Origin: Pyrinomonadaceae bacterium
GTDB lineage: Bacteria > Acidobacteriota > Blastocatellia > Pyrinomonadales > Pyrinomonadaceae
Assembly (NCBI GenBank): GCA_030841085.1
Contig: JAVEDP010000017.1
Span: 62,001-126,000, forward strand
DNA: 64,000 nt
Direction of reading: 5' to 3'
Shown here: positions 2,273 to 29,945 of the stretch, in pieces
Layout of the letters: every line of letters starts with the position of its first letter
Numbering within the stretch: position 1 is the stretch's first letter
Notes under the pieces: model-generated
Database searches by the model: none
What the model was told of the DNA's origin: nothing
Seen by the model: the letters and a program-made list of their open reading frames with translations, nothing else
Program-made: the position numbers and the translations under genes

Positions 2273-3958
2273 TTAGGGACGCGGCGACTGAGTTCTCCTG
2301 AGCCGATCATCAGGTTGCGCCGTTGTCTTGCCGGCTTCCTTTGTAGTGGTTGGAGATTTCGAACTTGCGCTATTTGAGGACTGAACCGTCCGAGATGGTA
2401 TTGGCATCAACACTCGCTTGACGTTGTTGCGCTGCGCTGGATTGTTTAGCAGCGGCATTGGCGTCGCGAAGGGTGCGACACGGTTGGCGTCGGTCGAGTT
2501 CTGCGTGTTCGCGCCAGTATCAACCTGGGCGGTTGCCGCTTCATCGTCGTTCTCTTCGTCATCGGGCACCGAGGCAAGCTGTACATTTGCAGGCGTACCG
2601 AAGCGACGACTAAGGTCACGATAGATTTGACCGGCGACGGCTGCGGGCACGTGCCGATGGGCATCGGTTCCACGGGTTATTACGACGACGGCTAGTTTCG
2701 GGTTGACCAACGGAGCATAGGAAGCAAATAAGCCTACCCAACTTCCTTCACCACCATTACAGGTCCCCGTTTTTCCGGCGACCGTTTGCGTGGGGTTGTA
2801 GGCGCGACGTCCCGAGCCGTAATTAACTGCACCCACCATGCCGGGAATCATGCGCTGCCAAACGGCGCTGTCGATATTAAGTTTGCGTCGAACTTTTCCT
2901 TTGAACCGCGCTGCTTCCTGTGCGTTGCGCGGAATTTGCGGCTCATAGAGTTTGCCGCCATTTGCCATGGCTGAAACAAGACTGCCCAGTTGCAGCGGCG
3001 TTACTTCAAAACCATCGGCGTAAGAAAACATGCGACGAACTGTGAAGCCGGGTTTCATTTCCGGCACGCGGCCGGGATATTCGAACGGAACATTGAGACC
3101 GGTCTTTTCACCCAAGCCCAATTCGCGCGCGTAATGGACCATCTTGTCAAAACCAAGACTGCTGCCCACGTGCTCAAAATAGGAATTGTCTGAGTGCGCC
3201 AGGGCCGAGGTCAAATCCATACGCGGACGATCCGAGGTCAACAGCGACTCTGACGGAGCAATGATGTTTTCCGAGAGACCAGCAACACCGGTCACCAACT
3301 TTATCGTCGAGCAGGGTTTGAATCCCCGTCGCAGGGCCCACTCCTGATTGACTATCGAATAGACCTTGCCATTCATTGGATCCATCACCACGACTGTTCC
3401 TGCGTGATTTCCCAGGGCGCTAACAGCCACACGCCGCACTTCAGCGTCTTCGCCAACTGTGTTGTCGTGGCCGATCATCGTCTGGACTTCATTACGTAGC
3501 GCTTCATCAATCGCGCGCTGCCGCGCAATTGCTGCCTGGCGAGCTGCTTCGGCGCGCCTGCGTGCCTCGAGGATTTCGCGCCGGCGTTGCGCCGCCATGC
3601 GACGGGTTTCGGCGGCTCGTTCGCGTCGGCTCATCGGCCGGCCCAGTTTGCGTTCCCGCACCTTGAGCGACGATGCCTGCTCGCGCGCGGCCTCGCGCCT
3701 TAGTTCGCGCTTTGAAAGCTTTGCATTCCCACGTCCGCCGCGTCTCGAATCTCGAGCCGACAGCCGCTCATCGCGCTTGGCGGCACGGCGTTCTTTGGCC
3801 GAGAGCTTTCGGCCCTTTTCGACTCGCGCTACTTTGCGACGAGGCGCGTCTGCGTGACGTTTTTTGGCAAGAACTGAAGATTGTGAGGGGAGAAGGAGGA
3901 GAACGAAAAGTATTAGTGCGACATAAAAGGTTCGAGGGTGTCGGTTAATCAAAGTCAT
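2273..3958 (-). CDS. Penicillin-binding protein transpeptidase with Arg/Ala-rich N-terminal helix
   Basis: A D,D-transpeptidase that cross-links peptidoglycan outside the cytoplasmic membrane. Residues 1-32 are a signal anchor. Residues about 35-165 are extremely Arg/Lys/Ala/Glu-rich (RRAEAARQAAIARQRA) and probably form a long coiled coil. The transpeptidase domain follows with all three active-site motifs: STIK (nucleophile Ser217), SDN at 256-258 and KTG at 396-398. There is no transglycosylase or PASTA domain, and the C-terminal 110 residues are a low-complexity Ser/Thr/Pro tail. It is 561 residues long. The basic coiled coil in place of a normal pedestal domain is unusual. A related transpeptidase domain is encoded at 18845. 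Confidence 0.88.
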   Translation of the reverse strand: MTLINRHPRTFYVALILFVLLLLPSQSSVLAKKRHADAPRRKVARVEKGRKLSAKERRAAKRDERLSARDSRRGGRGNAKLSKRELRREAAREQASSLKVRERKLGRPMSRRERAAETRRMAAQRRREILEARRRAEAARQAAIARQRAIDEALRNEVQTMIGHDNTVGEDAEVRRVAVSALGNHAGTVVVMDPMNGKVYSIVNQEWALRRGFKPCSTIKLVTGVAGLSENIIAPSESLLTSDRPRMDLTSALAHSDNSYFEHVGSSLGFDKMVHYARELGLGEKTGLNVPFEYPGRVPEMKPGFTVRRMFSYADGFEVTPLQLGSLVSAMANGGKLYEPQIPRNAQEAARFKGKVRRKLNIDSAVWQRMIPGMVGAVNYGSGRRAYNPTQTVAGKTGTCNGGEGSWVGLFASYAPLVNPKLAVVVITRGTDAHRHVPAAVAGQIYRDLSRRFGTPANVQLASVPDDEENDDEAATAQVDTGANTQNSTDANRVAPFATPMPLLNNPAQRNNVKRVLMPIPSRTVQSSNSASSKSPTTTKEAGKTTAQPDDRLRRTQSPRP

Positions 3959-10394: not shown

Positions 10395-11432
10395 ATGTCT
10401 CAGTTTTACCAATCCCATAAATCCATTTTTTTGCTGTCGCTGTTATTGCTTGCGGCCGTTGCAGTCGTGTTGCCAATTGCCGCCCAGCAATCGGATCCAA
10501 AGGCCGTGCGACCGCGCCAGGTGTTCCCAAGAAATGAACAGGCGCCGGACGAAGTTCTAAAGATCGACACGGACCTCGTCTCAGTCGACGTCAGGGCGAG
10601 CGACTCCGAAGGACGCCCCTTGCGAAACCTGGTGCAGGAAGACTTCAAGATTTTTATGGATGGAACCGAACAGCCTCTCGCTTTTTTCCAGGTCGAGCGA
10701 CGCAGCGGCGAGCCGCGACCGCTGGCGATGGTCTTTGCAGTCGACATTTCCGGCAGCATGACGCCCGATGAAATGAATCGTCTGCGACGCGCGTTGAATG
10801 CGTTTTCTGAAAAGTTGTCGGACCATCCTGCGCTCTACGCAGTCATGTCGTTTGGCATGAACGTGAAGACCGTGCAGAAGTTTACTACCGAAGCCAACAA
10901 GCTGGACCGCGCCATCGAGCGCCTGGCGAAAGAGCCAAACGGATTATCAACCCATACCTACGATGCGGTTGACGATGCGGTGCGCATGCTGGTGCGGCAT
11001 GCGCCACGGACGCGCGAGGGACGTTTGATAAAACGCGCGGTGTTGGTTGTGACCGACGGGTTTCCAGTGGGCGATACAGTTTCGGCGCCCGTCGTCATCG
11101 AACGCGCCAACGCCGCCGATGCCAGCATCTATGTGGTCACGCTTCCCTCTTATTCGCGCGTGTTGCCGGCGGCACTGCAAAATCCGCTGCCGACGCCGTT
11201 GGATGTTAGTGGCTTAGCAGAATTGACTGGAGGAAGAAGTGTCTACGCCGATGAAACGAATTACGAAGCGCTGTTTCGCGCCCTGGCAGAGGAAGTGACG
11301 TCGGCTTACGTGCTCGCGTTTTATCCGCCCGAAGAAAAACGTCATGACGGGCGATTTCACACTATCAAGGTTCAAGGTCCGAACGGCGTTATGCTGAGTC
11401 AAAGCCGTCCGGGATTCCAGACGGCAAAATAG
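10395..11432 (+). CDS. Secreted VWFA-related domain protein (acidobacterial type)
   Basis: 345 residues. A signal peptide covers residues about 1-30 and ends near PIAAQQ. A lead-in segment (KIDTDLVSVDVRASDSEGRP, NLVQEDFKIFMDG) typical of the acidobacterial VWFA-related family precedes a von Willebrand A domain with the metal-site motif DISGSM near residue 115 and VVTDGF later. VWA domains bind ligands through a divalent cation. The closing region (AYVLAFYPPEEKRHDGRFH) is also family-typical. The gene is flanked by repeat arrays on both sides. The function of this family is not established. Confidence 0.88.
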   Translation: MSQFYQSHKSIFLLSLLLLAAVAVVLPIAAQQSDPKAVRPRQVFPRNEQAPDEVLKIDTDLVSVDVRASDSEGRPLRNLVQEDFKIFMDGTEQPLAFFQVERRSGEPRPLAMVFAVDISGSMTPDEMNRLRRALNAFSEKLSDHPALYAVMSFGMNVKTVQKFTTEANKLDRAIERLAKEPNGLSTHTYDAVDDAVRMLVRHAPRTREGRLIKRAVLVVTDGFPVGDTVSAPVVIERANAADASIYVVTLPSYSRVLPAALQNPLPTPLDVSGLAELTGGRSVYADETNYEALFRALAEEVTSAYVLAFYPPEEKRHDGRFHTIKVQGPNGVMLSQSRPGFQTAK

Positions 11433-12081: not shown

Positions 12082-12942
12082 ATGTTCGCGTTCCTGAAAC
12101 GTCGACAAGTTACGTTCGCATTAGTGCTTTGGTTCGCACTGTTCCTTTTGGTTTCCTACCTCGTGCTCGGCAGAAACCGGAAAAGCGAAACCATCGCGGC
12201 AAGCCAGCCGTCATCCAAAACTTCCCGCACAACCATTTCGCCGCTCGCCCATACTCCTTCGCTCGATTCAGACAACGACGGCCTGCCGGACGCGGCGGAG
12301 CTGCAAAGTTTCATGGACCGCCAAAATTTCCGGCAATGGTTCACCCTGATTGCAGAAGGCCAGTTTTATCATCTGAGCGATCAATGGAACGCCGAACAGC
12401 GCGACTGTGCCGGCCTGGTGCGCTTCGCCTGGCGCGAGGCACTCCGCCGTCATGACCGCGTGTGGTTTCAAAAGATGGGACCAGGCTACTCGCCGGTTGC
12501 GCCGGACGTCGGCAGGTACACGCTCGAGCAAGGACCATTGGGCGAAAAACTTTTTCGCACCGGCTTTGGCGCGTACAAGGATGGCGACGTGGCGAGCGGC
12601 GCATTTTCCGACTTTGCCGATGCGCGCACGCTCAAGAATTTCAACGTTAAATTCATCAGCCGCGATCGCCATAATGCGGAGCCCGGCGATCTGCTCTTTT
12701 TCTATCAACCCTGGGTGCAAAAGTTTCCCTACCACGTGATGATTTTTCTTGGGAGCGCGAAGCTTAGCAACGAACAGGCAAGCGATTGGGTCGTTTATCA
12801 CACTGGGGCGTCGCCAACCGACGAAGGAACAGTTAAGAAGGTCGAGCTGTCCGTGCTCGATCATCATCCCAACAGGCGCTGGCGGCCGCTTGAAAGTAAT
12901 TCCAACTTTCTCGGTTTCTATCGTCTGAAAATTCTCGACTAG
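12082..12942 (+). CDS. DUF1175 (YfaT-like) NlpC/P60-fold envelope protein
   Basis: A 286-residue membrane-anchored protein: TM helix at residues 10-30, a Ser/Thr-rich linker, a calcium-loop-like motif DSDNDGLPDAAE at 62-73, then a domain with Cys109 in RDCAGLVRFAW and a later His in YHVMIFLG. That Cys/His arrangement is that of the NlpC/P60 amidase/peptidase fold. E. coli YfaT (DUF1175) is encoded next to the alpha-2-macroglobulin YfaS, and here the next gene, 21 nt downstream, is also an alpha-2-macroglobulin. This supports a joint role in envelope protection or wall remodelling. Whether the Cys is catalytic is not known. Confidence 0.78.
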   Translation: MFAFLKRRQVTFALVLWFALFLLVSYLVLGRNRKSETIAASQPSSKTSRTTISPLAHTPSLDSDNDGLPDAAELQSFMDRQNFRQWFTLIAEGQFYHLSDQWNAEQRDCAGLVRFAWREALRRHDRVWFQKMGPGYSPVAPDVGRYTLEQGPLGEKLFRTGFGAYKDGDVASGAFSDFADARTLKNFNVKFISRDRHNAEPGDLLFFYQPWVQKFPYHVMIFLGSAKLSNEQASDWVVYHTGASPTDEGTVKKVELSVLDHHPNRRWRPLESNSNFLGFYRLKILD

Positions 12943-12963: not shown

Positions 12964-15900
12964 TTGGACACAAAATCTCGTTCATATCGCATCCTGATTA
13001 CGTCGCTGGTCTACGTTGTAGCCATCGCCGCTGCGCTTACGATCGCAACCTTGCGCTCGCGTGCAAAAGCCGGCGCTCCACCACCGGAGCCTTACGAGGA
13101 AGTTGAACGGCCCATTCCCAGCAAGCCATTCTTTTCACTCTCGACGCATCGCACCTACGGCACAAACGACAACGCGCGTCTTTGGGTTGACTATCAGGCC
13201 GTGGACCATCTCGACTTTCGCGTCTACCAGGTAAAAGATCCGCGCAAGTTTTTCACTGACCTCAAAAATCCGCATCAGGTAGGTGAGAACGAACAGGAAC
13301 AAGTGGCCAGTTCCGTGCCGCATCGCAAATCGTTTCTTGAACGAGTGCGCAGTTTCAAGCGTTGGGCCTATTCAGGTATCAAGGGGTTCGTGCGCGGACA
13401 ACTGCAACACGATTCGCGCCAGGCTTTCAATCAAAAGTTTCGTCCCGAAAAAGAAATTGTGCGCACGCCTTTGAATGTTTCCGACTACGCGCGCGTGCCG
13501 CTTTTGAATCCGGATTTGCTGGTTAGCAGTTGGCGCGAGCCTTTGCCGCCGATCGAGAACGAATACGATCAACGCATGATCCCGCTGGGTAAACGCGGTC
13601 CCGGAGTTTACCTGGTTGAAGCCGTGGTCAATGATCTGCGCGCCTACACGGTCGTGGTCGTCACAGATTTGACGATGCTGGATAAGACTACGCGCGACGG
13701 CGAGATGTTGATCTACACCGTCGATCGCAAGACCGGCGAGCCGCGGCCCGGCGCGCAAGTTGAGATCATAAAAGAGAAGAAAGTGGTGGCTTCCGGAACA
13801 ACCGACGGTCAGGGCGTTCTGCGCGCCAAGGTGGACAAACCAAAAGCGGTGGAAGGTGAGGAAGCGGCTGACGTCGCCGCAGCCGACGAAGACACTTACT
13901 CCAAATCTTATCTGATTCTTGCAAAACAGAGTGGCAACTTTGCTATTTCAGATCTCGGCGGGCTGTTTTTCAGCGGCTACGATGGCGAAGAAGATTCGGA
14001 AAACGTGAAGGGATACGTTTATACCGACCGCCCGGTTTACAGACCCGCGCACAAGGTTTCATTTAAAGGAATCGTCCGGGCGATCGACCCGTCAGGTGCG
14101 TACAAGTCCGTCGGCGACAGCACCATCAACGTCACAGTCACAGATCCGAATAGCGCGAATGTCTTCACAAAAGAACTGCCGCTTTCAGCGCGCGGCACGT
14201 TCAACGGTGAAATGGAAATTTCCGAATCAGCGCCGCTGGGCACCTATACCATCGCGGCTGAGATTGAAGGCGGCAGCGCCAATGGCAATTTTGAAGTCGC
14301 CGAATACAAAAAGCCCGAATACAAAGTAACTGTTTCCGCGCCAGGAAAATTCATACAGGCCGGCCAGAAAACGAACTTCTCGGTCGATGCCAAGTATTTC
14401 TTTGGCTCGCCCGTAGCCAATGCTGACGTTCATTACTACATCTATCGTTCGCGCTATTACGCCTGGGGTTTTGGTGAGGACGATAGCGAGGACACTGGCG
14501 ACGAGTCTGATCGGGAAGATGAATACTCGTCTTTTTACCGTGGCGGCGACGACATGGTCCAGGAGAGCGATGGGACCCTCGACGCGCGCGGCCATTTGAA
14601 TGTCGCGTTTGATGTACCGCCACCCGACGAGAACGATACGAACGATTACAGTTACCGGCTGGAGGCCGAAGTGACCGATCCGGCGCGCCGGACTATGTCT
14701 GGCAGCGCCAGTTTTGTCGCTACGCGCGGAACGGTCGTCGCCAACGCCGAACCCGACAAATACGTTTACAACAAAGGCGACGTCGCGAAGATCAAAGTCA
14801 CCACCAGCGACTACGAGGGCCATCCTGTTTCGGCGAAGGTGCAACTGAAATTTGTCGAACGCAGCTGGACCAAAAAGCCTAAGAAGGATGATGAAGAGTA
14901 TTCCTACCCGGAATATGAGATGCACGAGCGCGAGGTTGCTTCGGGCGACGTGCAAACCGATTCACAGGGCCAGGCCAGCTACGACTACACCACAACTGAA
15001 GACGGAAACCTGTCGATCAAAACGATCGTCGACGACTCGGGCAAAAAGATCGCTTCAATCGGTGGCTATCTTTGGGTAACTGATCGGCAGTTTTCCTGGA
15101 GCGATTCCGCTTACTACAGCGAAGACTACAATTCCATCAAACTTGTTCCGGATAAAAAGTCCTATCGCGCCGGCGAAACTGCGCACGTGCTCGCCATCCT
15201 GCCGACTGACAATGCTCATCTCCTGGTCAGCACGGAATTGAATCAGGTCATGGATCTTCAGCAGGTGAACTCGGCGGGACGATCGATTGTGCTCGACATT
15301 CCGATCAAAGCTAACTATGCGCCCAACGTTTTTCTCAACGTTTCCTACGTGAAGAACGGCGACATGTTTACGAGCGACCAGCGGCTAGTCGTGCCCGCGC
15401 GCGACAAGATGCTAAACCTGGAAATCATTTCGAACAAGAAGGAATACAAGCCGCGCGAGTCCGCGTCTTATACGATCCTTGCGCGCAATTCCGACGGCGC
15501 GCCTGTTTCCGGCGCGGAAGTAAGTCTCGGCGTCGTCGATGAAGCTATCTACAGTGTTTCTCCGGATTTTGCCGGCAACATCAAGAATGAGTTTTACGGG
15601 ATGCGCTACAACACAGTCGAGACGCATCTCTCGATCAGCTATTCGTTTACTGGTTTCGCCGGCGACAAGCCGCTCTACCTCGCAAAGAACAAGCCGGCCT
15701 ACCAGCTGGCAGACTTCAAGAATGAAGGCGAACTGGTCCAACCAACTATCAGAAAAAACTTTAAAGACACTGCGTTTTGGCAACCGGACGTGATAACTGG
15801 TCCTGACGGCAAGGCTACGGTTAACGTTACCTTGCCCGATAACCTAACTACCTGGCGCGCCACCGCGCGTGCTGTAACGGCCGACACGAAAGTCGGCGCT

Positions 15901-17862
15901 ACCAAATACAAAGTGGTGGCTCGCAAAGACGTAATTATACGTTTGGAGACGCCGCGCTTTGTCACGCAAGGCGACACCGTTACCTTGTCCGGCATCGTTC
16001 ACAATTATTTGAACGCCGACAAGTCGACCCAAATCTCGCTCGAGGTCAGCGGTGCGCAATTACAGAATGGCGGCACCAAAACCGTGACCATCACCAAGCA
16101 GGGTGAACAGCGTATTGATTGGCAAATCACCGCGCCGAACGTCGGCGAAATCAAACTGCTGGCAAAGGCCTTGACCGACACGGAATCCGATGCGGTTGAA
16201 CTGCCGCTGCCGGTCGTGCCGCGCGGACTGCACCAGGTAAAGAACCAGAGCGAAACCTTCTCGGATGAAAATACCGACAAGACCTTTTCGCTAAGCATGC
16301 CCGCCGATGCTGATCAGCGCGCCCGCAGCTTGCGCATCGAAGTTGCCCCTTCGGTGGCTGGCACGTTGTTTGGCGCGCTCGATTATTTGACCAGCTACCC
16401 GTACGGCTGCACTGAACAAACCATGTCCAGTTTTCTGCCGAATGTGATCGTGACGAAGGCACTGAAAGACGTAAAGACTTCAACGATCCGCGGTTCAAAC
16501 GATCTGGAAAAGAAAGTGCAGAAAGGCGCGGATCGTCTTTATGCGTATCAGCACGAGGATGGCGGTTGGGGCTGGTGGAAAGACGACCAGAGCGATCCGT
16601 TCATGACCGCTTACGTCGTCGACGGCCTGACGCTGGCAAAGAATGCCGGCTATGAGGTGAATGAAGAACGGCTGGCCAGCGGACGACAGAAGCTGAAGGA
16701 AATGGTTGAGGCCGGCAAGACTGAAGCCGGCACGGTCATCGATCTGGAAACGCGTTCGTTCATGGTCTATGCGTTGGAAGAGAGTGGCGGCGCCGACAAT
16801 CAACAGGTTGAAAAGATTTTCGGCGAGCGCGGCAACCTGCAGCCTTATGGCCGTGCCTTGCTGGCGCTGACGCTCAAATTGAAAAAGGATGACAAGCGCG
16901 CGAAGGATATTGCCGCGGAGATCGAACGAACAGTCATCGCGGACAACTACTCCGCACATTGGGAGTCACGTCGCCGCGCGATGCTCGACTTTGCCGAAGA
17001 AGACGACACCGAAGCCACCGCACTTTCTCTTAAAGCATTGGCGCGCATCAAGCCGGATAGTTCACTGTTGCCGCGAGTGGCGCGTTGGCTGGTTTCGGAT
17101 CGGCGCAACAGCTACTACTGGGAATCCACCAAAGACACTGCTTTCGCTATCTTTGGTTTGATTGACTATTTGAAAGTCAGTCGCGAGCTGTCACCTGATT
17201 ACGACGTCGAGGTTTATCTGAACGGAGAGAATATCGCCACGCAGCACATTTCTTCCGTTGCTGCACAAACAATTTCACTTAATCGCAAGGCGGGAGAAGT
17301 TGGCGCAACTAACGACGTGCGCATTGTGAAGCGCGGCAAGGGAGTGATCTACTTTTCTTCGTCGCTTGATTACTACACCGGCGAAGAAGACGTGCCCGCG
17401 CGGGGCTCTGCCGATCTGAATGTGACTCGCGAATACTTGCGCCTGCGCGTGGTTGACGACGGTGGGACGCTGAAGTGGAAGCTCGATCCGCTGACTGGCG
17501 ACATTCATTCAGGCGACATGCTGGTAGTGCGTTTGAAATTGAATGGCGCAAAAGCACGGCACTTGATGCTGGAAGATCCGATTCCGGCAGGCGCCGAACA
17601 AGTGGAAAGCGTTAGCGGCCTGAACCTCGATTACAGTTCCGGTCACGACTGGTCGGATTGGTACAGCTCGCGCGAGTTTCGCGACAATCGCACGGTGTTC
17701 TTCCTGGATTATTTTGATGGCAGTTCAACTTTCCAGTACGCCATTCGCGTTCAGGTGCCCGGGCAATTTCGTATCGCGCCGGCGCGTGCGGAACTGATGT
17801 ATCGTCCGGCGGTGCAGTCAAACACAGCATCGGGACGCCTTTCGTTCCTGGAACGTAAATGA
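12964..17862 (+). CDS. Bacterial alpha-2-macroglobulin with thioester motif
   Basis: A 1632-residue envelope protein that traps proteases through a covalent thioester after bait-region cleavage. It starts at TTG with a strong ribosome site (AAAGGAGG, 10 nt upstream). It has an N-terminal membrane anchor (residues 8-28), MG-type beta-sandwich domains including an MG2 segment (GYVYTDRPVYRPAHKVSFKG), the central A2M domain (TAFWQPDVITGPDGKATVNV) and the thioester-containing helical domain with GCTEQ (Cys1149, Gln1152), so the thioester is intact. Residues about 505-535 hold an acidic, Tyr-rich insert. It has no lipobox. It is followed by an inverted repeat and then membrane, transpeptidase and DUF3352 genes. 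Bacterial homologues also lie beside wall-synthesis genes (YfhM with PbpC). Confidence 0.93.
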   Translation: MDTKSRSYRILITSLVYVVAIAAALTIATLRSRAKAGAPPPEPYEEVERPIPSKPFFSLSTHRTYGTNDNARLWVDYQAVDHLDFRVYQVKDPRKFFTDLKNPHQVGENEQEQVASSVPHRKSFLERVRSFKRWAYSGIKGFVRGQLQHDSRQAFNQKFRPEKEIVRTPLNVSDYARVPLLNPDLLVSSWREPLPPIENEYDQRMIPLGKRGPGVYLVEAVVNDLRAYTVVVVTDLTMLDKTTRDGEMLIYTVDRKTGEPRPGAQVEIIKEKKVVASGTTDGQGVLRAKVDKPKAVEGEEAADVAAADEDTYSKSYLILAKQSGNFAISDLGGLFFSGYDGEEDSENVKGYVYTDRPVYRPAHKVSFKGIVRAIDPSGAYKSVGDSTINVTVTDPNSANVFTKELPLSARGTFNGEMEISESAPLGTYTIAAEIEGGSANGNFEVAEYKKPEYKVTVSAPGKFIQAGQKTNFSVDAKYFFGSPVANADVHYYIYRSRYYAWGFGEDDSEDTGDESDREDEYSSFYRGGDDMVQESDGTLDARGHLNVAFDVPPPDENDTNDYSYRLEAEVTDPARRTMSGSASFVATRGTVVANAEPDKYVYNKGDVAKIKVTTSDYEGHPVSAKVQLKFVERSWTKKPKKDDEEYSYPEYEMHEREVASGDVQTDSQGQASYDYTTTEDGNLSIKTIVDDSGKKIASIGGYLWVTDRQFSWSDSAYYSEDYNSIKLVPDKKSYRAGETAHVLAILPTDNAHLLVSTELNQVMDLQQVNSAGRSIVLDIPIKANYAPNVFLNVSYVKNGDMFTSDQRLVVPARDKMLNLEIISNKKEYKPRESASYTILARNSDGAPVSGAEVSLGVVDEAIYSVSPDFAGNIKNEFYGMRYNTVETHLSISYSFTGFAGDKPLYLAKNKPAYQLADFKNEGELVQPTIRKNFKDTAFWQPDVITGPDGKATVNVTLPDNLTTWRATARAVTADTKVGATKYKVVARKDVIIRLETPRFVTQGDTVTLSGIVHNYLNADKSTQISLEVSGAQLQNGGTKTVTITKQGEQRIDWQITAPNVGEIKLLAKALTDTESDAVELPLPVVPRGLHQVKNQSETFSDENTDKTFSLSMPADADQRARSLRIEVAPSVAGTLFGALDYLTSYPYGCTEQTMSSFLPNVIVTKALKDVKTSTIRGSNDLEKKVQKGADRLYAYQHEDGGWGWWKDDQSDPFMTAYVVDGLTLAKNAGYEVNEERLASGRQKLKEMVEAGKTEAGTVIDLETRSFMVYALEESGGADNQQVEKIFGERGNLQPYGRALLALTLKLKKDDKRAKDIAAEIERTVIADNYSAHWESRRRAMLDFAEEDDTEATALSLKALARIKPDSSLLPRVARWLVSDRRNSYYWESTKDTAFAIFGLIDYLKVSRELSPDYDVEVYLNGENIATQHISSVAAQTISLNRKAGEVGATNDVRIVKRGKGVIYFSSSLDYYTGEEDVPARGSADLNVTREYLRLRVVDDGGTLKWKLDPLTGDIHSGDMLVVRLKLNGAKARHLMLEDPIPAGAEQVESVSGLNLDYSSGHDWSDWYSSREFRDNRTVFFLDYFDGSSTFQYAIRVQVPGQFRIAPARAELMYRPAVQSNTASGRLSFLERK

Positions 17863-17865
17863 GGT

Positions 17866-17995
17866 GCAGAACCGCGAGCGATTGTTTCGTAAAGCAAACT
17901 GTTAGTTTGCGGTCGCTCGTTACTACTAAGCGTGAATTCATGGGTACCACCGCAAACTAACAGTTTGCTTTACTTTCTTCGGCTCGCGGTTCTGC
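17866..17995. repeat. Inverted repeat family B, copy 1
   Basis: The inner arms GTAAAGCAAACTGTTAGTTTGCGGT (17889-17913) and its reverse complement (17948-17972) are perfect. The outer arms GCAGAACCGCGAGCG (17866-17880) and GCTCGCGGTTCTGC (17982-17995) extend it. Each inner arm is itself nearly palindromic (CAAACTGTTAGTTTG). It starts 4 nt after the alpha-2-macroglobulin stop. Copy 2 is at 29860-29945. Confidence 0.85.
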
Positions 17996-18008: not shown

Positions 18009-18845
18009 ATGCTAACAGAAACATTTTCATCAATCGTGGCCGCCGTGCGAAAAGTCTTCGCAAACTGGCGCGCGCTTTTGCTGGTGGCCATTGTTTACGT
18101 CGCGCTGCTGGTCGCGCTCTACTTCTTCGTCGCTGTTAGAGAAGCGAGCGTCGCCCAGGTTGCATTGACGTTTGCGCTCGCGCTGCTGGCTCCGATTCTC
18201 TTCTTCATGTTGCAGGCCATGATTGCTAATGGGTTTTCTGATGCAGCCGAGCCGCTGAGCGCAGGGCTGGTGGCAAAAAGATCGCTGACCGGCTTTTGGA
18301 AATTCATAGTAATCACGCTGCCGCTTATCGCGTTGGCAATTCTTGTCGTCTACCTGCTGGCGAAATACCAATCACATCTTGCGTCGGTTCCCGACAGTGC
18401 GACGCAACTTCATCCGATGGCCGCATCGTCACGCAGCCACGAAACGACGCGCGCAGCGATCAATTGGAAGGGCGCGGCGCTTTCAACCATCAGATATTTG
18501 GCGCTCGGTTTGGTGTTACCGCTCGCTGCAATCCATCTGTGGCTGGCCACTGCTCGCGATGGCTTGGTCACGGCTCTTAAGAGAATCGGACAACTGCTGG
18601 CGCGCGCTTTCGCTCCTCAGTCTATTTTGATTTACGTCGTTGGCTTCCTGATTTTTGCAATTGCTCCTTACTTCCTATTGTTCCGCACCACGCCCAACAA
18701 GCATGCATGGTTGGACCTCATTCTGCTGGGCGTACGCGTCGCCGCGGTTTTCTCGCTGACGCTTCTCGGTTGGGTCATAACTGTTAAAGCTATTGCTTTG
18801 CTGACTGCGAAATCGTCGGAGCCAGTCACGAACGAGGCTGGCTGA
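18009..18845 (+). CDS. Multi-pass membrane protein of the wall-remodelling cluster
   Basis: 278 residues with six hydrophobic segments (about 24-43, 52-75, 98-118, 160-180, 203-222, 238-262) and no recognised motif. The stop TGA overlaps the next start (TGATG), so it is translationally coupled to the transpeptidase/SpoIID fusion at 18845. It probably anchors or assists that protein; this is inference from context only. Confidence 0.7.
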   Translation: MLTETFSSIVAAVRKVFANWRALLLVAIVYVALLVALYFFVAVREASVAQVALTFALALLAPILFFMLQAMIANGFSDAAEPLSAGLVAKRSLTGFWKFIVITLPLIALAILVVYLLAKYQSHLASVPDSATQLHPMAASSRSHETTRAAINWKGAALSTIRYLALGLVLPLAAIHLWLATARDGLVTALKRIGQLLARAFAPQSILIYVVGFLIFAIAPYFLLFRTTPNKHAWLDLILLGVRVAAVFSLTLLGWVITVKAIALLTAKSSEPVTNEAG

Positions 18846-21532
18846 TGATTGCATGGCGCGCAGTCGGCGCATTCGACGCACTTGGCGATCGAGCCGCCGA
18901 TGTCTGGGCGGGGCGATACTTTCGTCGCGCTGCCCTTGTCAGCTTAGTATTTCTGGCGTTGGCTGTTTCCGGCTGGTCCGCATGGTCGATTGCTCGGAAC
19001 GGCATTTCACCTAATGCTGCTGCTGTTACAACTGACGAGAGCGAGTTGGACCAGCGTATGCAGCAGGCCGCGACCTTCGCGCTTGGGAGTCGTCGGGGCA
19101 CGGTCATCGTCATGGATCCGCAAACCGGACGAGTGCGCGCCATAGTTAATTCCGAACTCGCCGTTCAGGAAAGTTTTCCACCCGGCTCGACAATCAAACC
19201 ATTCACTGCCCTGGCGGCGTTGCGCGCCGGCTTGATCGACGAAGACTCGCGCACGCTGTGCCACGAAAAATATTTTCGCGGCGAGTTTCATACAACTTGT
19301 TCGCATCCGCGCGACCTGCCGCCGCTAAATCCCACGGAAGCGATCGCCTACTCATGCAATTACTATTTTGGAAAACTGGGCGAGCGGCTTTCCGAAGAGA
19401 GCTTCTCGGCAACGCTGAGTGACTTTGGTTTTGCCCGAAAGACTGGAGTCAACACTGCGGGTGAGTCGACCGGAAAAATGCAACGCGCAGTCTGGCGCCC
19501 GCAGTCGGCGATGGGCGAAGGTGAATATCTGCAGACGACGCCGCTGCAATTAATCAATGCCTATACCGCGTTGGTGAATGGCGGCCATGTTCTGGTGCCG
19601 CATCTTCCGGCAACGTCAAAAGTCCGCCCGGAAATTCAAAGCAACATCGCAATTGATAGCGCACAACGCGAACTGATCGTTAAGGGAATGCGCGGCGCAA
19701 TTCGTTATGGAACCGCCGAGTCCGCGAACCTCTATTCATTGCCCCTCTACATTTTTGGCAAGACCGGCACAGCAACAGAAATCAACGGCTATCGCACCCA
19801 TGGCTGGTTCGTCGGGTTTGCCGCGCGAGCGAACAACGACGGGAATGATGGCGGTGTGCCGCCGCCGGATAAAGTTGAACTCGCAGTGCTGGTCTTTTTG
19901 GCGAGGGCTCACGGCGTCGAAGCTGCCGAAGTCGCACGGCCTATCTTTGCGGAGTTTGGCAAAACCGATCCGCCGGCAGTTTCCGCCGCGGCTGAATCAC
20001 AAGCGCCGGTGTTGGTTCCAGCTAACTCCGCAAACGATTCACTGTCGCCGTCAACGGTTCGCGTTTATGTTGCGCGCGAGAATGCGGTCCGCACCATGTC
20101 CGTTGAGGATTACGTGCGCGGCGTGGTAGCGGCCGAAGGCAGCACCGAAGAGGAGCCGGAAGCGTTGAAAGCGCTGGCTGTCGCAAGCCGTACTTACATT
20201 CGTAAGAACCTTGGGCGTCATAGTGCGGATGGTTACGACTTTTGCACCACAACTCATTGCCAACGATACGTGGCCGATGGTGTTGCAAACGTGCCGGCGC
20301 GCGTCAAAGAGGCAGTCGAAGAAACGAGCGGCGAAGTCTTACGCGATACAGATAATCAAATAGTCGATTCTTATTTCAGCGCTTCCTGCGGCGGCGCGAC
20401 GGCGAACCTGACGACGTTGTGGGGTAAGCGTGCGCCTGCTTATCTGCAAGGCGTCAATGATGAATACTGCGAGAGTCAACCACATCACAGTTGGACTGAC
20501 AGAATTCCGGAAGCGAAACTTTTGCAGGCGTTGCAAAGCGATCCGCGCACAAATATCGGCGCGCGGCTGGCCGACGTATCGGTTACCCGGCGTGACGATT
20601 CCGAACGCGCGCAACTGATCACCATCCAGGGCGAGCGGCGGTTAATCGTGAGCGGCTGGGACTTTAAGATTATCGTCGGGCGCGCGTTGGGCTGGAACCT
20701 GTTGAAGAGTTCACGCTTTGAAATTTCTCGTTCGGGGTCGGATTTTGTATTTCATGGCAGCGGCTTTGGCCATGGTCTGGGACTTTGTCAGGAAGGCGCT
20801 CATGTGATGGCGGCGCGTGGCGCAAGCTATCGCCAGATTCTCCGCAAATATTTTCCGACAACCCACCTTGCAAGCGAACATCCCGCCGCCGCTGATTTGC
20901 TTTGGGGCTCCCGCGCAATTGATCCGATCTCCACCGATAGCCAACGCACCACTCGCCTGACGATCGCGAGCGAAGGCTTTCGCCTTAATTATCCCAGCAC
21001 GGTAAGGACACGCGAGGCTGAAGACTTGCTGACGTGGGTGCAGTCGGCACGACGGCAGTTGATCGATCGAGTGAAAGCGGCCGGATTTAGTTTGCAGTTC
21101 CCTGCCCTGGAAATCTTTATCAATAACACGACTGGCAATTTCGTCGGTCGCACTGGTCAACCGCCCTGGGCAGCAGCGGCCACGCGCAACCAGCGTATCG
21201 AGTTGCAACCGCTACCGTTGCTCAAACGAAAGCGAATCCTTGAAACCACCTTACGGCACGAGTTGGCCCATGCGGCAATCGATGCGCTTGGTGGCGGCCG
21301 CACGCCGCATTGGTTGGCCGAAGGCCTGGCCATATACCTGGCCGGTGAAGGTAAATTCGTCGAGCGCTATGCGCCTCGTTCGCCAATGAAACCTGAAGAG
21401 ATTGAGCAGAAGCTTGCCGGCGCTCGATCGTCGCAGGAGATGCGAGTCGCCTACGCCGCCGCCTACTTAGAAGTAAAACGTCTGATTGAAAGTGAAGGCG
21501 AGGCCAAGATTTGGCGGCGTGTGGCCCAATGA
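18845..21532 (+). CDS. Transpeptidase-SpoIID-metallopeptidase triple fusion
   Basis: 895 residues, three apparent enzymes in one chain. After a TM helix (33-53), residues about 80-370 form a penicillin-binding transpeptidase with STIK (Ser115, Lys118), SCN (170-172) and KTGT (from Lys306). Residues about 400-680 match SpoIID/LytB, a lytic transglycosylase that cuts glycan strands: DYVRGVVAAEG with Glu431, SYFSASCGG, and GFGHGLGLCQEGA. Residues about 700-895 form a peptidase-MA-like zinc protease with HELAH (His805, Glu806, His809) followed by WLAEGLAIY. All key residues seen are intact. It starts at an ATG overlapping the upstream stop. A protein that could cross-link, cut glycan and hydrolyse peptide bonds suggests coupled wall synthesis and turnover. 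Confidence 0.88.
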   Translation: MIAWRAVGAFDALGDRAADVWAGRYFRRAALVSLVFLALAVSGWSAWSIARNGISPNAAAVTTDESELDQRMQQAATFALGSRRGTVIVMDPQTGRVRAIVNSELAVQESFPPGSTIKPFTALAALRAGLIDEDSRTLCHEKYFRGEFHTTCSHPRDLPPLNPTEAIAYSCNYYFGKLGERLSEESFSATLSDFGFARKTGVNTAGESTGKMQRAVWRPQSAMGEGEYLQTTPLQLINAYTALVNGGHVLVPHLPATSKVRPEIQSNIAIDSAQRELIVKGMRGAIRYGTAESANLYSLPLYIFGKTGTATEINGYRTHGWFVGFAARANNDGNDGGVPPPDKVELAVLVFLARAHGVEAAEVARPIFAEFGKTDPPAVSAAAESQAPVLVPANSANDSLSPSTVRVYVARENAVRTMSVEDYVRGVVAAEGSTEEEPEALKALAVASRTYIRKNLGRHSADGYDFCTTTHCQRYVADGVANVPARVKEAVEETSGEVLRDTDNQIVDSYFSASCGGATANLTTLWGKRAPAYLQGVNDEYCESQPHHSWTDRIPEAKLLQALQSDPRTNIGARLADVSVTRRDDSERAQLITIQGERRLIVSGWDFKIIVGRALGWNLLKSSRFEISRSGSDFVFHGSGFGHGLGLCQEGAHVMAARGASYRQILRKYFPTTHLASEHPAAADLLWGSRAIDPISTDSQRTTRLTIASEGFRLNYPSTVRTREAEDLLTWVQSARRQLIDRVKAAGFSLQFPALEIFINNTTGNFVGRTGQPPWAAAATRNQRIELQPLPLLKRKRILETTLRHELAHAAIDALGGGRTPHWLAEGLAIYLAGEGKFVERYAPRSPMKPEEIEQKLAGARSSQEMRVAYAAAYLEVKRLIESEGEAKIWRRVAQ

Positions 21533-21590: not shown

Positions 21591-21699
21591 ACTGGGACCG
21601 CGGGCGTCTCGCCCGCCTGGCTACGTCAGAAGACCGGTTGAGTAGTCGAGTTGTTCGCGCTACGCGCTCATTGCGGGCGGGACGCCCGCGGTCCCAGTA
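21591..21699. repeat. Long GC-rich inverted repeat, family D
   Basis: ACTGGGACCGCGGGCGTCTCGCCCGC at 21591 faces GCGGGCGGGACGCCCGCGGTCCCAGT at 21673-21698, with a nested palindromic arm on each side and about 56 nt between. The half-unit CCCAGTATTAA is then repeated at 21707-21717. It lies 58 nt after the triple-fusion gene in a 237-bp gap before the DUF3352 gene. Confidence 0.8.
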
Positions 21700-21769
21700 T
21701 TAACGTCCCAGTATTAACTCGGTGTCTCTCCTTTGCGACGGTCAAACACACGAAAGTGAATTGGCAGCA

Positions 21770-24148
21770 ATGAAGTTATCAACAATAGCGGCACTACTCA
21801 CGCGACTATTTCTTGCAGTAGTGCTTTCAGCATCGCCGTTGGCCGCGCAAAAACGTGGCATCGCTCCACAAAAACCAGCGCCGACTCCGCTCGCGAAACC
21901 TGCGGAACCTAATCCAACTTTTGACACGCTGCTCGCCGACGACAGCTACAAGATTTACTTTGAAGTTCGTGGCGTGGGCCAGTTGCTTCATTCTCCTGCC
22001 GTCAACGACTTGCTCGAACCTATAACGAAAATCGTAGGACCCTCAAAAGAGTTCAACGCGGTTTTGAAATGGCTGGATGCCCACGCTGAGAGTCTCGCCG
22101 GTTCGCGCCTGTTCGTGGCTAGTTGGCCCACGCAAACGAGTTTGCCGGCAGTTTTGCTGGCGATCGAATTCGCCTCGCCCGAGGAAGCGCAAAAGTTTGA
22201 GCCTCAGCTGCGCCGCTTTATGCCAACGTTGACACCCACGCCCGAACCAACTCCGGCATCGCGCGCCGGACAGCCTAAGCTTGCGTCGACGCCAGAGGTG
22301 CAGCCGCAACCGTCAGCGGCTTCTTCGTTTCCCTATCACATCGCGCATGTCGGATCGCTGGTTCTGCTTAGTGACAAGGCCTTTGCCTTTCGCGATCTAA
22401 AACCGCGCCGGGCAAAACTGCTTGCCGAAGATCAGAACTTCGTAACGGCGCGGAATCGTTTCGCTTCTGAGTCGCTGTTCCTGTACGTCGATGTGAAAGC
22501 GATCGAGAAAGAGGACCAGGAACGTCGCAAGAAATATGAAGAAGACGATCGACGAATCGTCGAAGAGGAACGCAGTCGGGCCAAACAGGAACAAACGTCA
22601 CCTCCTGAGACTACCGAACCTACGATCGTCGAGGCGACCGAGATGGCGACACCGGACGAGCCTCCGCCGCCCGCGCCAAAGGACACCGCAACCTTGAGTA
22701 CGTCGACGCAGGTTCAGACTCCTACCGCGACGCTCAGCGGTCAGGAGAAGACGCCGGACTCGGCGTTGCTGAGTACGCTATCGTATTCGCTTTACGGCGC
22801 ACTGTTTGGCGGCCAGCCCAGGTGGCCCGAAGCGATTGCCGCTGCTGTCGCTTTTGAAGGAGATGCTTATGTTTTGCGCGCTCTCATTGTCAACTCCGCC
22901 GAGAACAAAGACGTCGCTATACCGTTTCTGCCGCAGTTAGTCTCAGGTCCGGCTTTGATTCCCGCGTCGCCCGCAGTTCTACCGGCTGACGCCGATCTGT
23001 TTGTTTCAGCTTCGCTCGAATATCCGCAAATGTATGACGGACTGTTGAAAGCAATTGCCGCCATGAACGAGCGTGGACGCGATTATTCCATGCAAGCCGT
23101 CAGCGATGCGCCGGCCGTTTCTCCTTTCGCCGAATTCGAGAAAAAGCTCGGACTGAAAATCAAGGACGACATTCTGCCGTTGTTGGGAAATGAACTGGCA
23201 ATCGCGTTAGTGCCAAAACGCGCAGACGACAATTCTGCGAATCCGTCTGCGACACCGGCGGCAGACACTCAACAAAAAGTTAAGACGTACGATCCCGATC
23301 CAATAATCGCGATCGCTGTAAAAGACAAGGACGCTGTCCGCCATCTGATACCGAAGCTGATCGAAGCGATGGGGTTCAAGGGCGCCAGCCTGGTCGCGCA
23401 GACTGAACGGAAGGACGACACGGAAACTACAACTTACGCAGACCTGTTGTCGTATGCATTCGTCGGCGACTTTCTAATCCTGTCGCTAAATCCTGCCGCC
23501 GTAAAACGCGCCGTCGCGTCTTACCTGGCCGGTGAAACTCTCTCCTCGAACAGCTACTTTCGAAACGCGAGCCGTTGGCAGTCGCGCCAAGTACAAGCGC
23601 AGGCTTACATGGCGCCGGTTATGGTCCAGCGGTATGGGCTGGGCGGCGCGAACTCAGTAAACGAAAGAACGGCGGAGCTGCTGTCGCATGTGAATCTGCC
23701 GATCGAGCCACTCACCTATTCGCTTTCAAATGAAGGATCCGGTCCGCTGCATGAATTGCACTTCCCGAAGAACTTGCTGTTGCTGATGATGGCAAGCATT
23801 TCAAACGAGGGCAGCTCGACGCCGCTTCAGGCTAACGAAGCCGCGGTGAAAAGCCAGTTGCGGACGATAGTAAGCGCTGAGGCAACTTATCAAGCGACGA
23901 CTGGAGACGGCCGCTACGGAATAATTGATGAGCTTGTGAAGGCGGGCCTGCTCAGCAAAGAACCGATAGAGCGGTATGGTTATGAGATCGAGTTGACAGT
24001 CTCGGCGAACAAGTTTGCGGCGACGGCGGTGCCGCTTGAATATGGCAAGTCGGGCAGCCTTTCTTATTTTGTTGACGAGAGCGGAGTGATGCGCGGCAGC
24101 GATCGCGCCGGCGGTCCGGCCATGATTTCCGATCCGCCAATCCAGTAA
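21770..24148 (+). CDS. Exported DUF3352 protein with pseudopilin-like C-terminus
   Basis: 792 residues from the ATG at 21770, which begins a clear signal peptide (cut near SPLAAQ); the frame extends upstream to a GTG at 21722 without one. Residues about 45-690 are a DUF3352-type domain (FDTLLADDSYKIYFEVRGVG) broken near residues 165-260 by a Pro-rich linker, a highly charged helix (EKEDQERRKKYEEDDRR) and another Pro/Thr linker. The last 90 residues (SQLRTIVSAEATYQATTGDG, RYGIIDELVKAGL, YFVDESGVMRG) resemble the globular part of acidobacterial type IV pilin-like proteins, without the pilin N-terminal helix. Neither half has a known activity. It closes the alpha-2-macroglobulin/transpeptidase cluster. 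Confidence 0.75.
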   Translation: MKLSTIAALLTRLFLAVVLSASPLAAQKRGIAPQKPAPTPLAKPAEPNPTFDTLLADDSYKIYFEVRGVGQLLHSPAVNDLLEPITKIVGPSKEFNAVLKWLDAHAESLAGSRLFVASWPTQTSLPAVLLAIEFASPEEAQKFEPQLRRFMPTLTPTPEPTPASRAGQPKLASTPEVQPQPSAASSFPYHIAHVGSLVLLSDKAFAFRDLKPRRAKLLAEDQNFVTARNRFASESLFLYVDVKAIEKEDQERRKKYEEDDRRIVEEERSRAKQEQTSPPETTEPTIVEATEMATPDEPPPPAPKDTATLSTSTQVQTPTATLSGQEKTPDSALLSTLSYSLYGALFGGQPRWPEAIAAAVAFEGDAYVLRALIVNSAENKDVAIPFLPQLVSGPALIPASPAVLPADADLFVSASLEYPQMYDGLLKAIAAMNERGRDYSMQAVSDAPAVSPFAEFEKKLGLKIKDDILPLLGNELAIALVPKRADDNSANPSATPAADTQQKVKTYDPDPIIAIAVKDKDAVRHLIPKLIEAMGFKGASLVAQTERKDDTETTTYADLLSYAFVGDFLILSLNPAAVKRAVASYLAGETLSSNSYFRNASRWQSRQVQAQAYMAPVMVQRYGLGGANSVNERTAELLSHVNLPIEPLTYSLSNEGSGPLHELHFPKNLLLLMMASISNEGSSTPLQANEAAVKSQLRTIVSAEATYQATTGDGRYGIIDELVKAGLLSKEPIERYGYEIELTVSANKFAATAVPLEYGKSGSLSYFVDESGVMRGSDRAGGPAMISDPPIQ

Positions 24149-27267: not shown

Positions 27268-28449
27268 ATGACTCGAACAGCAACCTATCAGGCAGGCCGC
27301 GCCGTCGCCGCCTCAATCGAATCTCATTTCGCGCGCCATCTCGCGCTGGCGCACGAGCGCGGCGAGAACGGTCTGGCGCCGGCGCCGCGGGCCGAGGCTA
27401 TCCAAGCGATGATCGACGCTACCTTTTGGGCCAGCTTGCGCCCGGAAGAAGGCCGTTTTCCGAAAATCTCGTTGGCCTTTCTGCCTCCCGAACAAGCCGG
27501 GCGAGCGCTCATGTTCGAAAGGTCCATGCCGCTTGATCCCGGCGTGTTAACAAAACTCGCACCCGCAGTCGAACGTCCCGGAATTCATCTTGGCATCTGG
27601 TACGAAGGTGATGCGCAGCAAAGCAGCGACTCTGGCGCTTGTCGCTTGCGTGTCTGGGGCGCGACCCGAGTAGTTCCCAGCTTCGGGTTCGTGCTTGAAG
27701 ATGTAGAACCGGGTCTGCTGGTGATCAAACACCGTCGCGTCAACGGCTTTGGCAAGTACGCAAACGTCGCCGTGCTCATGGGCGAACAAGTAAAAGTGAT
27801 CGATGAGCAAGGAACCAGCCTGCCTGACTGCCCGGCGCTGCTGAAGGCGTTGCTGGCGTTCAATTCGGCCGCCGATCCAAATGACCGCCGCGCGTCGGTC
27901 AATGTGTTGGTGCAGTTGGCGGCTTCGATGCGCGCCCACGCGCACGGCGGTTCTTTGCTTGTAGTGCCCACGGGAAAAGAAACCTGGCACGACTCGATCG
28001 TTCAACCTGTGCTCTATTCAGTTGCACCTGCTTTCTCAGCCTTGGCGGAACTTGTGGGCCGCGACGAAACCGCACGCAGCGAGAATGCCTGGGAGTCATC
28101 GGTGCGCAAAGCGGTTGACACAGTCGCGGGGCTCACGGCAGTTGACGGTGCTACGGTGATAAACGATCGGTATGAAGTGCTGGCGTTTGGCGTGAAGATA
28201 CGGCGCCCGACTGGCAGTCAGCCTGTCGAGCAAATGGTTCTGACTGAACCAGTCGTCGGCAACCAAGCGGTCGTTGTTCCGCCCGTACAGCATGGCGGCA
28301 CACGACATTTGTCGGCGGCGCAATTTGTACACGATCAGCAAGATGCGCTGGCGCTGGTGGCGTCGCAGGATGGACGTTTCACCGTCTTTGCCTGGTCGCC
28401 TTGCGAAAACATGGTCCACGCCCATCGTGTGGATACGCTGCTGATGTAG
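27268..28449 (+). CDS. DisA_N/DAC-like nucleotidyl cyclase domain protein (DACNV type)
   Basis: 393 residues. The C-terminal part resembles diadenylate cyclase (DAC) domains: VDGATVINDRYEVLAFGVKI corresponds to the catalytic DGA region, and GTRHLSAAQFVHDQQDALAL to the nucleotide-binding GTRHR motif and the helix after it. The third residue of the RHR triad is Leu here. The N-terminal 250 residues (LGIWYEGDAQ, FGFVLEDVEPGLLVIKHRR) fit the sensor domain described as DACNV in a survey of nucleotide-based systems. If active it would make c-di-AMP or a related dinucleotide. No TM segment is seen, and no effector gene adjoins. Fold assignment is fairly confident; activity is not. Confidence 0.65.
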   Translation: MTRTATYQAGRAVAASIESHFARHLALAHERGENGLAPAPRAEAIQAMIDATFWASLRPEEGRFPKISLAFLPPEQAGRALMFERSMPLDPGVLTKLAPAVERPGIHLGIWYEGDAQQSSDSGACRLRVWGATRVVPSFGFVLEDVEPGLLVIKHRRVNGFGKYANVAVLMGEQVKVIDEQGTSLPDCPALLKALLAFNSAADPNDRRASVNVLVQLAASMRAHAHGGSLLVVPTGKETWHDSIVQPVLYSVAPAFSALAELVGRDETARSENAWESSVRKAVDTVAGLTAVDGATVINDRYEVLAFGVKIRRPTGSQPVEQMVLTEPVVGNQAVVVPPVQHGGTRHLSAAQFVHDQQDALALVASQDGRFTVFAWSPCENMVHAHRVDTLLM

Positions 28450-29859: not shown

Positions 29860-29945
29860 GTAAAGCAAACTGTTAGTTTGCGTTGCTTTGCCAGGCACTC
29901 AAGTTGAGCGCTTACGCACCACCGCAAACTAACAGTTTGCTTTAC
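29860..29945. repeat. Inverted repeat family B, copy 2
   Basis: GTAAAGCAAACTGTTAGTTTGCG and its reverse complement (29923-29945), with about 40 nt between. It sits upstream of the TSUP gene; if the longer reading frame from 29883 were used, part of it would be translated, which argues for a later start. Confidence 0.85.

Follow-up and report, generated by a model that had tools for sequence, protein, structure and literature searches.

The gene at the centre of this article lies within a 64,000-nucleotide stretch of a Pyrinomonadaceae bacterium contig (JAVEDP010000017.1, positions 62,001 to 126,000; hereafter the window, within which all coordinates are given) that belongs to a genome of 4.69 Mb. 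In a single open frame of 895 codons on the forward strand (18845-21532, +), it encodes a 895-residue polypeptide in which a transpeptidase (TP) domain, a SpoIID/LytB lytic-transglycosylase domain and a C-terminal domain that reads as a gluzincin peptidase follow one another. This fusion gene is the fourth of a set consisting of DUF1175, alpha-2-macroglobulin (A2M), a membrane protein and the fusion itself, and among its relatives in the Blastocatellia the fusion is co-inherited with A2M and DUF1175. Here I describe the three domains, their conservation and their company, and then discuss what such a protein may do beside a bacterial A2M.

Three enzyme domains in one frame

A preliminary description of this locus, made from the sequence, had recognized a penicillin-binding transpeptidase, a SpoIID domain and an HExxH peptidase in one 895-residue frame, and the reading stands; the motifs are intact, and although the same description had named a domain lacking its fold as an outcome that would speak against it, models and Foldseek searches recovered all three folds. 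The chain begins with a predicted membrane helix (18914-18994, +; residues about 24-50) that is also a helix in the model and includes a hydropathy maximum of 1.85 in the 19-residue stretch from residue 31, and it would act as a type II anchor leaving the remainder of the protein in the periplasm. The TP domain follows (19028-19960, +; residues 62-372) with GSTIK (S115, K118), SCN (S170, N172) and KTGT (K306), and its match to Pfam Transpeptidase (PF00905) spans residues 85-330 with an E of 2.2e-47 and 162.2 bits against a cut-off of 22.1. Foldseek places the TP fold among penicillin-binding proteins (PBPs), and VIA-align gives Z of 33.7-35.5 to PBP structures over 286-307 residues, in a listing made up of TP rows only, as one domain fills it; by sequence, the closest solved structures are PBP2 (MrdA) and Stage II sporulation protein D. 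Judged from its sequence, the TP is a class-B-type transpeptidase. Class B PBPs carry an N-terminal pedestal or dimerisation domain ahead of the TP, and the fusion is without one, having only about 60 residues there, comprised of the membrane helix and a stretch modelled with low confidence.

A flexible linker (19961-20056, +; residues 373-404) leads to the SpoIID/LytB domain (20057-20878, +; residues 405-678), in which Glu431, the Cys467/His471/Cys472 cluster, CGG (515-517) and HGLG (His643) can be read. Pfam SpoIID matches residues 412-499 (E 9.1e-22), NCBIfam SpoIID_LytB (TIGR02669) matches residues 414-676 (E 4.3e-52, 177.7 bits against a cut-off of 83.3), and Foldseek leads to the Clostridioides difficile SpoIID structure 5i1t (E 3.4e-18). 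The SpoIID proteins of Bacillus, Clostridioides and Waddlia share this domain and fold, with a catalytic Glu that aligns with that of the fusion, but they are stand-alone proteins in other surroundings, whereas the fusion is multi-domain. The Cys/His cluster of the C. difficile protein binds zinc.

Behind a second flexible linker (20879-20950, +; residues 679-702) lies the peptidase domain (20951-21529, +; residues 703-895), which has HELAH at 805-809 (His805, Glu806 and His809) and Glu826 placed 17 residues past the second His. No Pfam family reaches its cut-off over the C-terminal 190 residues (SprT-like reaches 17.1 of the 25.6 bits required and Peptidase_MA_2 14.1 of 32.4), and a search of the PDB with an alignment profile (A3) brought up no sequence relative below E 0.5. 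Modelled alone by AlphaFold, the domain reaches a predicted local distance difference test (pLDDT) score of 96.6 and a predicted template modelling (pTM) score of 0.91, and Foldseek lists clostridial collagenases first (E 7e-5 to 1e-3; three chains at E <0.001), followed by M1, M61 and M30 enzymes at E 2e-3 and weaker, all of which I take to be gluzincins. By motif and modelled fold, then, the domain is a gluzincin (HExxH..E) peptidase. The whole-chain AlphaFold2 model (43 rows; mean pLDDT 84.7, pTM 0.45) falls below a pLDDT of 50 at residues 1-23 and 49-63 near the N-terminus and at 378-400 and 680-700 within the two linkers; these low values, together with the pTM, suggest three folded domains on flexible joints, and the model therefore does not reveal whether the active sites face one another. 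From the motifs, all three domains would be catalytically active.

Relatives were collected by scanning GTDB genomes with two peptide patterns (relatives having neither pattern are missed), and the best 80 of 98 matches represent 77 loci, of which 43 encode the fusion protein and the other 34 match the SpoIID part only. All 43 fusion loci come from records labelled Blastocatellia, Pyrinomonadaceae, Chloracidobacterium, Acidobacteria or Acidobacteriota, and the closest named relatives among these best 80 matches are a Blastocatellia bacterium (82% identical) and Chloracidobacterium sp. UBA6041 (61%). The fusion is in one frame at 38 of the 43 loci (different assemblies, a few of them possibly near-copies), the peptidase has its own frame directly after SpoIID at three, and two loci are cut at a contig end. 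In an alignment of 23 sequences (A1: the window copy plus 22 relatives that share 32-82% identity with it), each of the named catalytic and motif residues is identical in 22 or 23 sequences. In a larger one of 43 rows (the window copy plus all of the 43 loci except L116), Glu431, Cys467, His471, Cys472, CGG and His643 do not vary at all, and conservation of the TP and peptidase residues is at least 90%, even counting rows that lack a domain due to contig ends or gene splits. GSxxK/SCN/KTG is kept in 42/42 Blastocatellia TP domains found and HExxH..E in 41 of the 42 peptidase domains; among 16 further rows, the SpoIID Glu position is readable in 14 and is Glu in all 14, the other two being cut by the domain boundaries used. 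Against the 82% identical relative, the ratio of nonsynonymous to synonymous substitution rates (dN/dS) is 0.13 for TP, 0.14 for SpoIID and 0.12 for the peptidase, and 0.63 and 0.28 for the first and second linker; purifying selection acts on all three domains.

Two explanations can be weighed on the protein alone. One is that neighbouring genes were joined by a sequencing error, and the loci where the peptidase is a separate frame could be cited in its favour; with 38 single-frame copies from different assemblies and purifying selection throughout the three domains, the chance of such an artefact is negligible and I reject a frameshift or gene-joining origin. The preliminary description had called for error-free domain joints and for the same architecture in related genomes, and both are borne out by the 38 Blastocatellia loci and the dN/dS of 0.12-0.14; it had also named relatives with separate genes plus a frameshift here as an outcome that would refute it, and of these two separate genes do occur (the peptidase at the three Blastocatellia loci and the TP in ten loci of other lineages described below), but the frameshift does not. 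The other explanation is a sensor of wall damage or beta-lactams whose peptidase would be activated when the TP is acylated, on the model of BlaR1, which combines a penicillin-binding sensor with a metalloprotease. TP and HExxH do share one protein here and the TP region weakly matches BlaR1 (24.9 bits, where the cut-off is 400); however, the protease domain of BlaR1 sits in the membrane and cuts a cytoplasmic repressor, whereas the fusion peptidase is a C-terminal domain behind SpoIID and presumably extracytoplasmic, which makes this reading highly improbable.

An alpha-2-macroglobulin set and its relatives

The set opens with the DUF1175 protein (12082-12942, +), which matches PF06672 at E 9.8e-68 and is NlpC/P60-like (NLPC_P60, E 4.8e-5). 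Its Cys109 and His218 are each conserved in 51/51 sequences and His240 in 50/51, and because of this likeness and these residues a fourth enzyme, wall-acting or proteolytic, may belong to the set, although a published survey terms the family inactive (PMC10318531). The A2M gene (12964-17862, +) encodes 1632 residues with MG2, A2M, bait-region, TED and bMG10 parts and a CTEQ thioester motif at residue 1149, and it is the sole PF00207 match of the genome; of 52 long A2Ms, 50 carry CxEQ and only the two enterobacterial ones lack it. Next comes a polytopic membrane protein of no known family (18009-18845, +), with hydrophobic segments, only sub-cut-off Pfam matches and a conserved position between A2M and the fusion. 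As read from the sequence, the ATG of the fusion overlaps the stop codon of this membrane-protein gene (TGATG), and this overlap suggests translational coupling of the two. Downstream of the fusion, a DUF3352 protein (21722-24148, +; PF11832, E 4.1e-11) is of uncertain membership, since it adjoins the fusion in only some relatives. In PADLOC the membrane protein drew a single weak 4TM match (E 0.09), and the fusion, DUF1175, A2M and DUF3352 drew none.

Several other features of the window were noted in passing. An inverted repeat with 22-base arms, 37-38 bases apart, occurs twice, at 17891-17971 between the A2M and membrane-protein genes and at 29862-29943 over the listed start of frame 29883; none was found in shuffled sequence and it may be a small mobile element. 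A GC-rich inverted repeat at 21596-21693, between the fusion and DUF3352 genes, is possibly a terminator or repeat element. A VWA-domain protein (10395-11432) precedes DUF1175 and holds the same place in three other loci (L031, L050 and L051), a second penicillin-binding protein (2273-3958, -) has a TP domain only, behind a long basic N-terminal stretch, and 27268-28449 encodes a DACNV sensor domain protein (E 8.9e-27) with a sub-cut-off match to DAC (diadenylate cyclase).

The association with A2M is constant wherever it can be read in the Blastocatellia: A2M lies upstream of the fusion in 34/34 loci with upstream sequence, and in the remaining nine of the 43 the contig starts no more than about 1 kb ahead of the fusion. 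When 98 genomes of the class were tallied, 27 had both DUF1175 and the fusion (four of these partial or split over contigs; one DUF1175 match is a fragment), 69 had neither, one had DUF1175 alone, on a contig that ends at A2M, and one had the fusion alone, with A2M still present; these genomes are related rather than independent events, and many of those without the fusion come from one genus. The preliminary description, which was made without the neighbourhood, had proposed insertion of new wall or service to a large envelope machine, and the first of these now fits less well than repair linked to A2M, while opening of the wall for a large periplasmic complex stays live; A2M and DUF1175 travel with the fusion, and the reading of its role shifts accordingly to protease trapping and envelope repair. 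A general enzyme of wall growth or division, which couples cross-linking to glycan cleavage for new wall and has A2M as an incidental neighbour, would be in keeping with the intact TP and SpoIID motifs and with a SpoIID homologue that is reported to work at the Chlamydiales division septum (PMC6635528). But the genome has eight transpeptidase proteins, and the fusion is missing from 70 of the 98 class genomes, 69 of which are without DUF1175 too, so that the fusion appears dispensable and tied to the A2M set, and I regard a growth or division role as unlikely.

The same domains accompany A2M beyond the class, in arrangements of their own. DUF1175 is found in 37 of 297 genomes of the phylum Acidobacteriota, 29 of them outside the Blastocatellia; 18 of these 29 loci were read (the other 11 all belong to one family, f29), and custom profile models located the module within about 4 kb of A2M in 15 of them. 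At four loci (families f30, f51, f63 and f66) there is a single TP-SpoIID-peptidase gene, and at the four f16 loci a separate TP gene has a stop codon that overlaps the start of a SpoIID-peptidase gene. The seven f29 loci (L210-L216) have the reversed order peptidase-SpoIID, on the A2M strand, with a diverged TP that is a separate neighbouring gene in six and is fused at the N-terminus in the same frame in the seventh (L214). This TP keeps GSLAK, SCN and KTG in 7/7, and its profile matches are weak (E 0.11-1.7 for six and 7.4 for the seventh), while hhalign gives E 5e-8 and a probability of 95% in a single comparison without database correction; its identity as a TP is supported by the three motifs, its position and hhalign. 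The separate genes, here and at the three Blastocatellia loci, read as recombination among linked modules rather than an error in the window.

In the Atribacterota, 15 of 50 genomes have DUF1175, and a stand-alone HExxH..E peptidase lies directly after A2M in 10/10 loci with room for it, the other five being cut within A2M or 270 bases past it. The peptidase is thus the module most widely found with A2M, and since it occurs at loci without visible wall domains, its partner would be A2M or DUF1175 rather than the wall. This evidence also bears on another explanation, namely that SpoIID makes a hole in the wall and TP closes it again solely to place a large A2M complex, while the peptidase matures A2M, much as dedicated lytic enzymes open the wall for flagella and secretion systems. 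The size of the A2M (1632 residues), the adjacent membrane protein and the occurrence of the peptidase even where TP and SpoIID are not visible agree with such an assembly role, as does the altered amount or forms of the Pseudomonas A2M in the magB and magE mutants discussed below; it is opposed by the Atribacterota A2M loci, where no SpoIID or TP was seen in the sequence covered. I consider it possible, though rather doubtful.

The yfa and mag loci

Among better known loci, the nearest likeness is found in the Enterobacteriaceae, where the order is DUF2138-DUF1175-A2M-DUF2300-DUF2135 (yfaA-yfaT-yfaS-yfaQ-yfaP). As in the window, DUF1175 adjoins A2M, and YfaQ (DUF2300) comes after A2M as the fusion does and has, like the fusion, a SpoIID match and an HExxH motif. 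The stretches of YfaQ that align best to TP, SpoIID and the peptidase are residues 53-133, 295-398 and 501-531, in the same order as in the fusion. For SpoIID, YfaQ scores 27 bits against the Pfam model (gathering score 23), and in profile comparison YfaQ paired with its Citrobacter copy scores 72.9, with the best of 150 decoys at 21.8 (a decoy set that included one true member, L216, with a score of 284; a 420-decoy set used for the other domains excluded such matches). For TP, the pair scores 33.7 against a profile that includes f29, with the best of 420 decoys at 26.5 and the two DUF2300 proteins above all 420, and 27.1 by hhalign against a profile without f29, for which no decoys were run; hmmsearch with the f29-including profile gives E 0.0046 for Citrobacter and 0.09 for YfaQ, ranked 41 and 42 behind family members, and with the f29 TP profile alone E 0.32 and 16. 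For the peptidase, the pair scores 25.2 with the best of 420 decoys at 22.9, the Citrobacter copy alone (27.7) exceeds all 420, and YfaQ alone (22.6) is outscored by a single decoy (22.9).

Broader comparisons see only the middle part: the whole-fusion alignment A1 meets YfaQ over 44 SpoIID columns (probability 25.9, E 7e-4), and BLASTP of the fusion against YfaQ aligns SpoIID only (E 4e-4). The DUF2300 model (PF10062) itself matches none of the 23 A1 sequences at E up to 10 and nothing in the genome at E 0.001, and the relation between the fusion and DUF2300 rests on the SpoIID match of DUF2300 and on the profile comparison. By eye, YfaQ keeps GSLWK and HEYLH but has SCG and KTW in place of SxN/SCN and KTG, and its SpoIID Cys/His cluster is largely gone, unlike that of the fusion. 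DUF2300 (YfaQ/MagE) is thus probably a degenerate relative of the fusion, the relation being secure for SpoIID on sequence grounds, supported for TP, and weak for the peptidase, where mainly the motif and its place point to it.

The yfa locus is a counterpart of the Pseudomonas aeruginosa mag operon (magABCDEF), an A2M-centred operon with a YfaQ-like protein that I compare here through papers only; PA4488 (magE) is tabulated as YfaQ in PMC10977779, and MagB would, from gene order and length, be the DUF2138 protein. These operons are marked by a Type II A2M: that of mag is thioester-less and the yfa A2Ms have no CxEQ in the two loci read, while the window A2M has CTEQ; the neighbours also differ, being a membrane protein and DUF3352 in the window. 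DUF3352 was considered as the counterpart of DUF2138/MagB and found no support (hhalign score 16.1 at a probability of 0.1, with no search of the genome made for DUF2138). As its A2M keeps the thioester, the DUF2300 model misses A1 and DUF3352 shows no relation to DUF2138 by hhalign, the window set is, as far as sequence can tell, not a mag operon proper. In published work on mag, magD (the A2M gene) protects P. aeruginosa from the wall-targeting type VI secretion system effector VgrG3 and gives limited protection from Tae1, by a mechanism described as still to be elucidated (PMC12663445), and deletion of magB or magE alters the amount and forms of the A2M MagD, the effect of magC being ambiguous as text and legend disagree (PMC5764988).

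A different pairing of this kind is the Type I A2M beside pbpC (PBP1c), where a thioester A2M is likewise coupled with a penicillin-binding enzyme. PBP1c belongs to class A and has a glycosyltransferase domain, whereas the fusion has a TP alone joined to SpoIID and a peptidase, and no glycosyltransferase domain was found in it. No A2M-pbpC pair stands in the genome of the window, where the only PF00207 match is the A2M of the fusion set. Joint protease trapping and wall repair is an older proposal made for A2M-pbpC, as stated in PMC5764988.

A proposed wall-remodelling and proteolytic arm for A2M

Protease trapping with envelope repair fits the fusion better than general wall growth because the gene travels with A2M and DUF1175, and I give about an even chance to the reading that the fusion serves a periplasmic A2M system, itself related to the yfa and mag loci, as its arm for wall remodelling and proteolysis. 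Anchored in the inner membrane, with its three enzyme domains on two flexible linkers, the fusion would work beside an A2M that traps proteases entering the periplasm. SpoIID, whose homologues cut glycan strands (PMC6635528), would cleave the glycan and TP would restore cross-links, which would cut back and seal damaged wall; alternatively, the two would create a gap and close it around the A2M complex, whose length implies about 180 kDa. The gluzincin may act on A2M itself, for maturation or triggering, or on trapped and damaged proteins; the periplasmic location, A2M as the substrate and the role in defence or repair are all conjectural.

A number of observations weigh against this reading. 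The relative placement of the domains cannot be read from the whole-chain model at its pTM, and in one fusion (L130) the HExxH motif reads HELAL, its second His being lost. At eight of the 15 module-bearing loci outside the Blastocatellia (f30, f51, f63, f66 and f16), the module is on the strand opposite A2M and hence linked to it without forming one operon; two further loci (L202 and L208) have no module within about 12 kb, and a third (L204) is cut by a contig edge. Judging by the Atribacterota loci, some A2M loci do without wall remodelling. An approximately unbiased test neither shows nor rejects a single origin for the A2M-linked SpoIIDs (p-AU 0.219; 28 linked and 39 solo rows, after removal of the fusion L026, which is identical to L135). 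DUF2300 resembles the peptidase only weakly, and hmmsearch with the peptidase profile gives E 15 and 52, which is not significant. The mag data concern a thioester-less A2M from a distant phylum, and MagE is reported to be cytoplasmic and not stably bound to MagD (PMC5764988). The weight given to the trap-and-repair and assembly readings comes from the Acidobacteriota and Atribacterota loci and not from the peptidase likeness of DUF2300.

A more elaborate alternative takes the gluzincin to be a protease dedicated to cleavage of the thioester A2M: carried by the wall enzymes, it would arrive at broken wall, the A2M would be triggered and covalently fixed at the breach, TP and SpoIID would mend the gap, and YfaQ/MagE would be a reduced trigger in Escherichia coli and Pseudomonas, the whole forming a counterpart of the complement convertase. 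I think this unlikely.

Each domain of the fusion and the A2M operons are already known. Within the open-licence literature searched (titles and starts of abstracts), there was no description of the fusion, of the module around A2M, or of YfaQ/MagE as its relative, and DUF2300 and DUF2138 were named nowhere. The fusion beside A2M suggests that some bacteria pair protease trapping with repair of the wall, by means of an A2M that resembles the human protease-trapping alpha-2-macroglobulin and a locus that openly carries wall-cutting, cross-linking and peptidase domains with their motifs intact. It may also explain the yfaQ gene of the E. coli A2M locus, by suggesting what YfaQ/MagE (DUF2300) descends from. 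With the full enzyme set on one chain, the trap-plus-repair proposal for A2M becomes directly testable, and the gluzincin offers a specific candidate for an A2M-processing enzyme.

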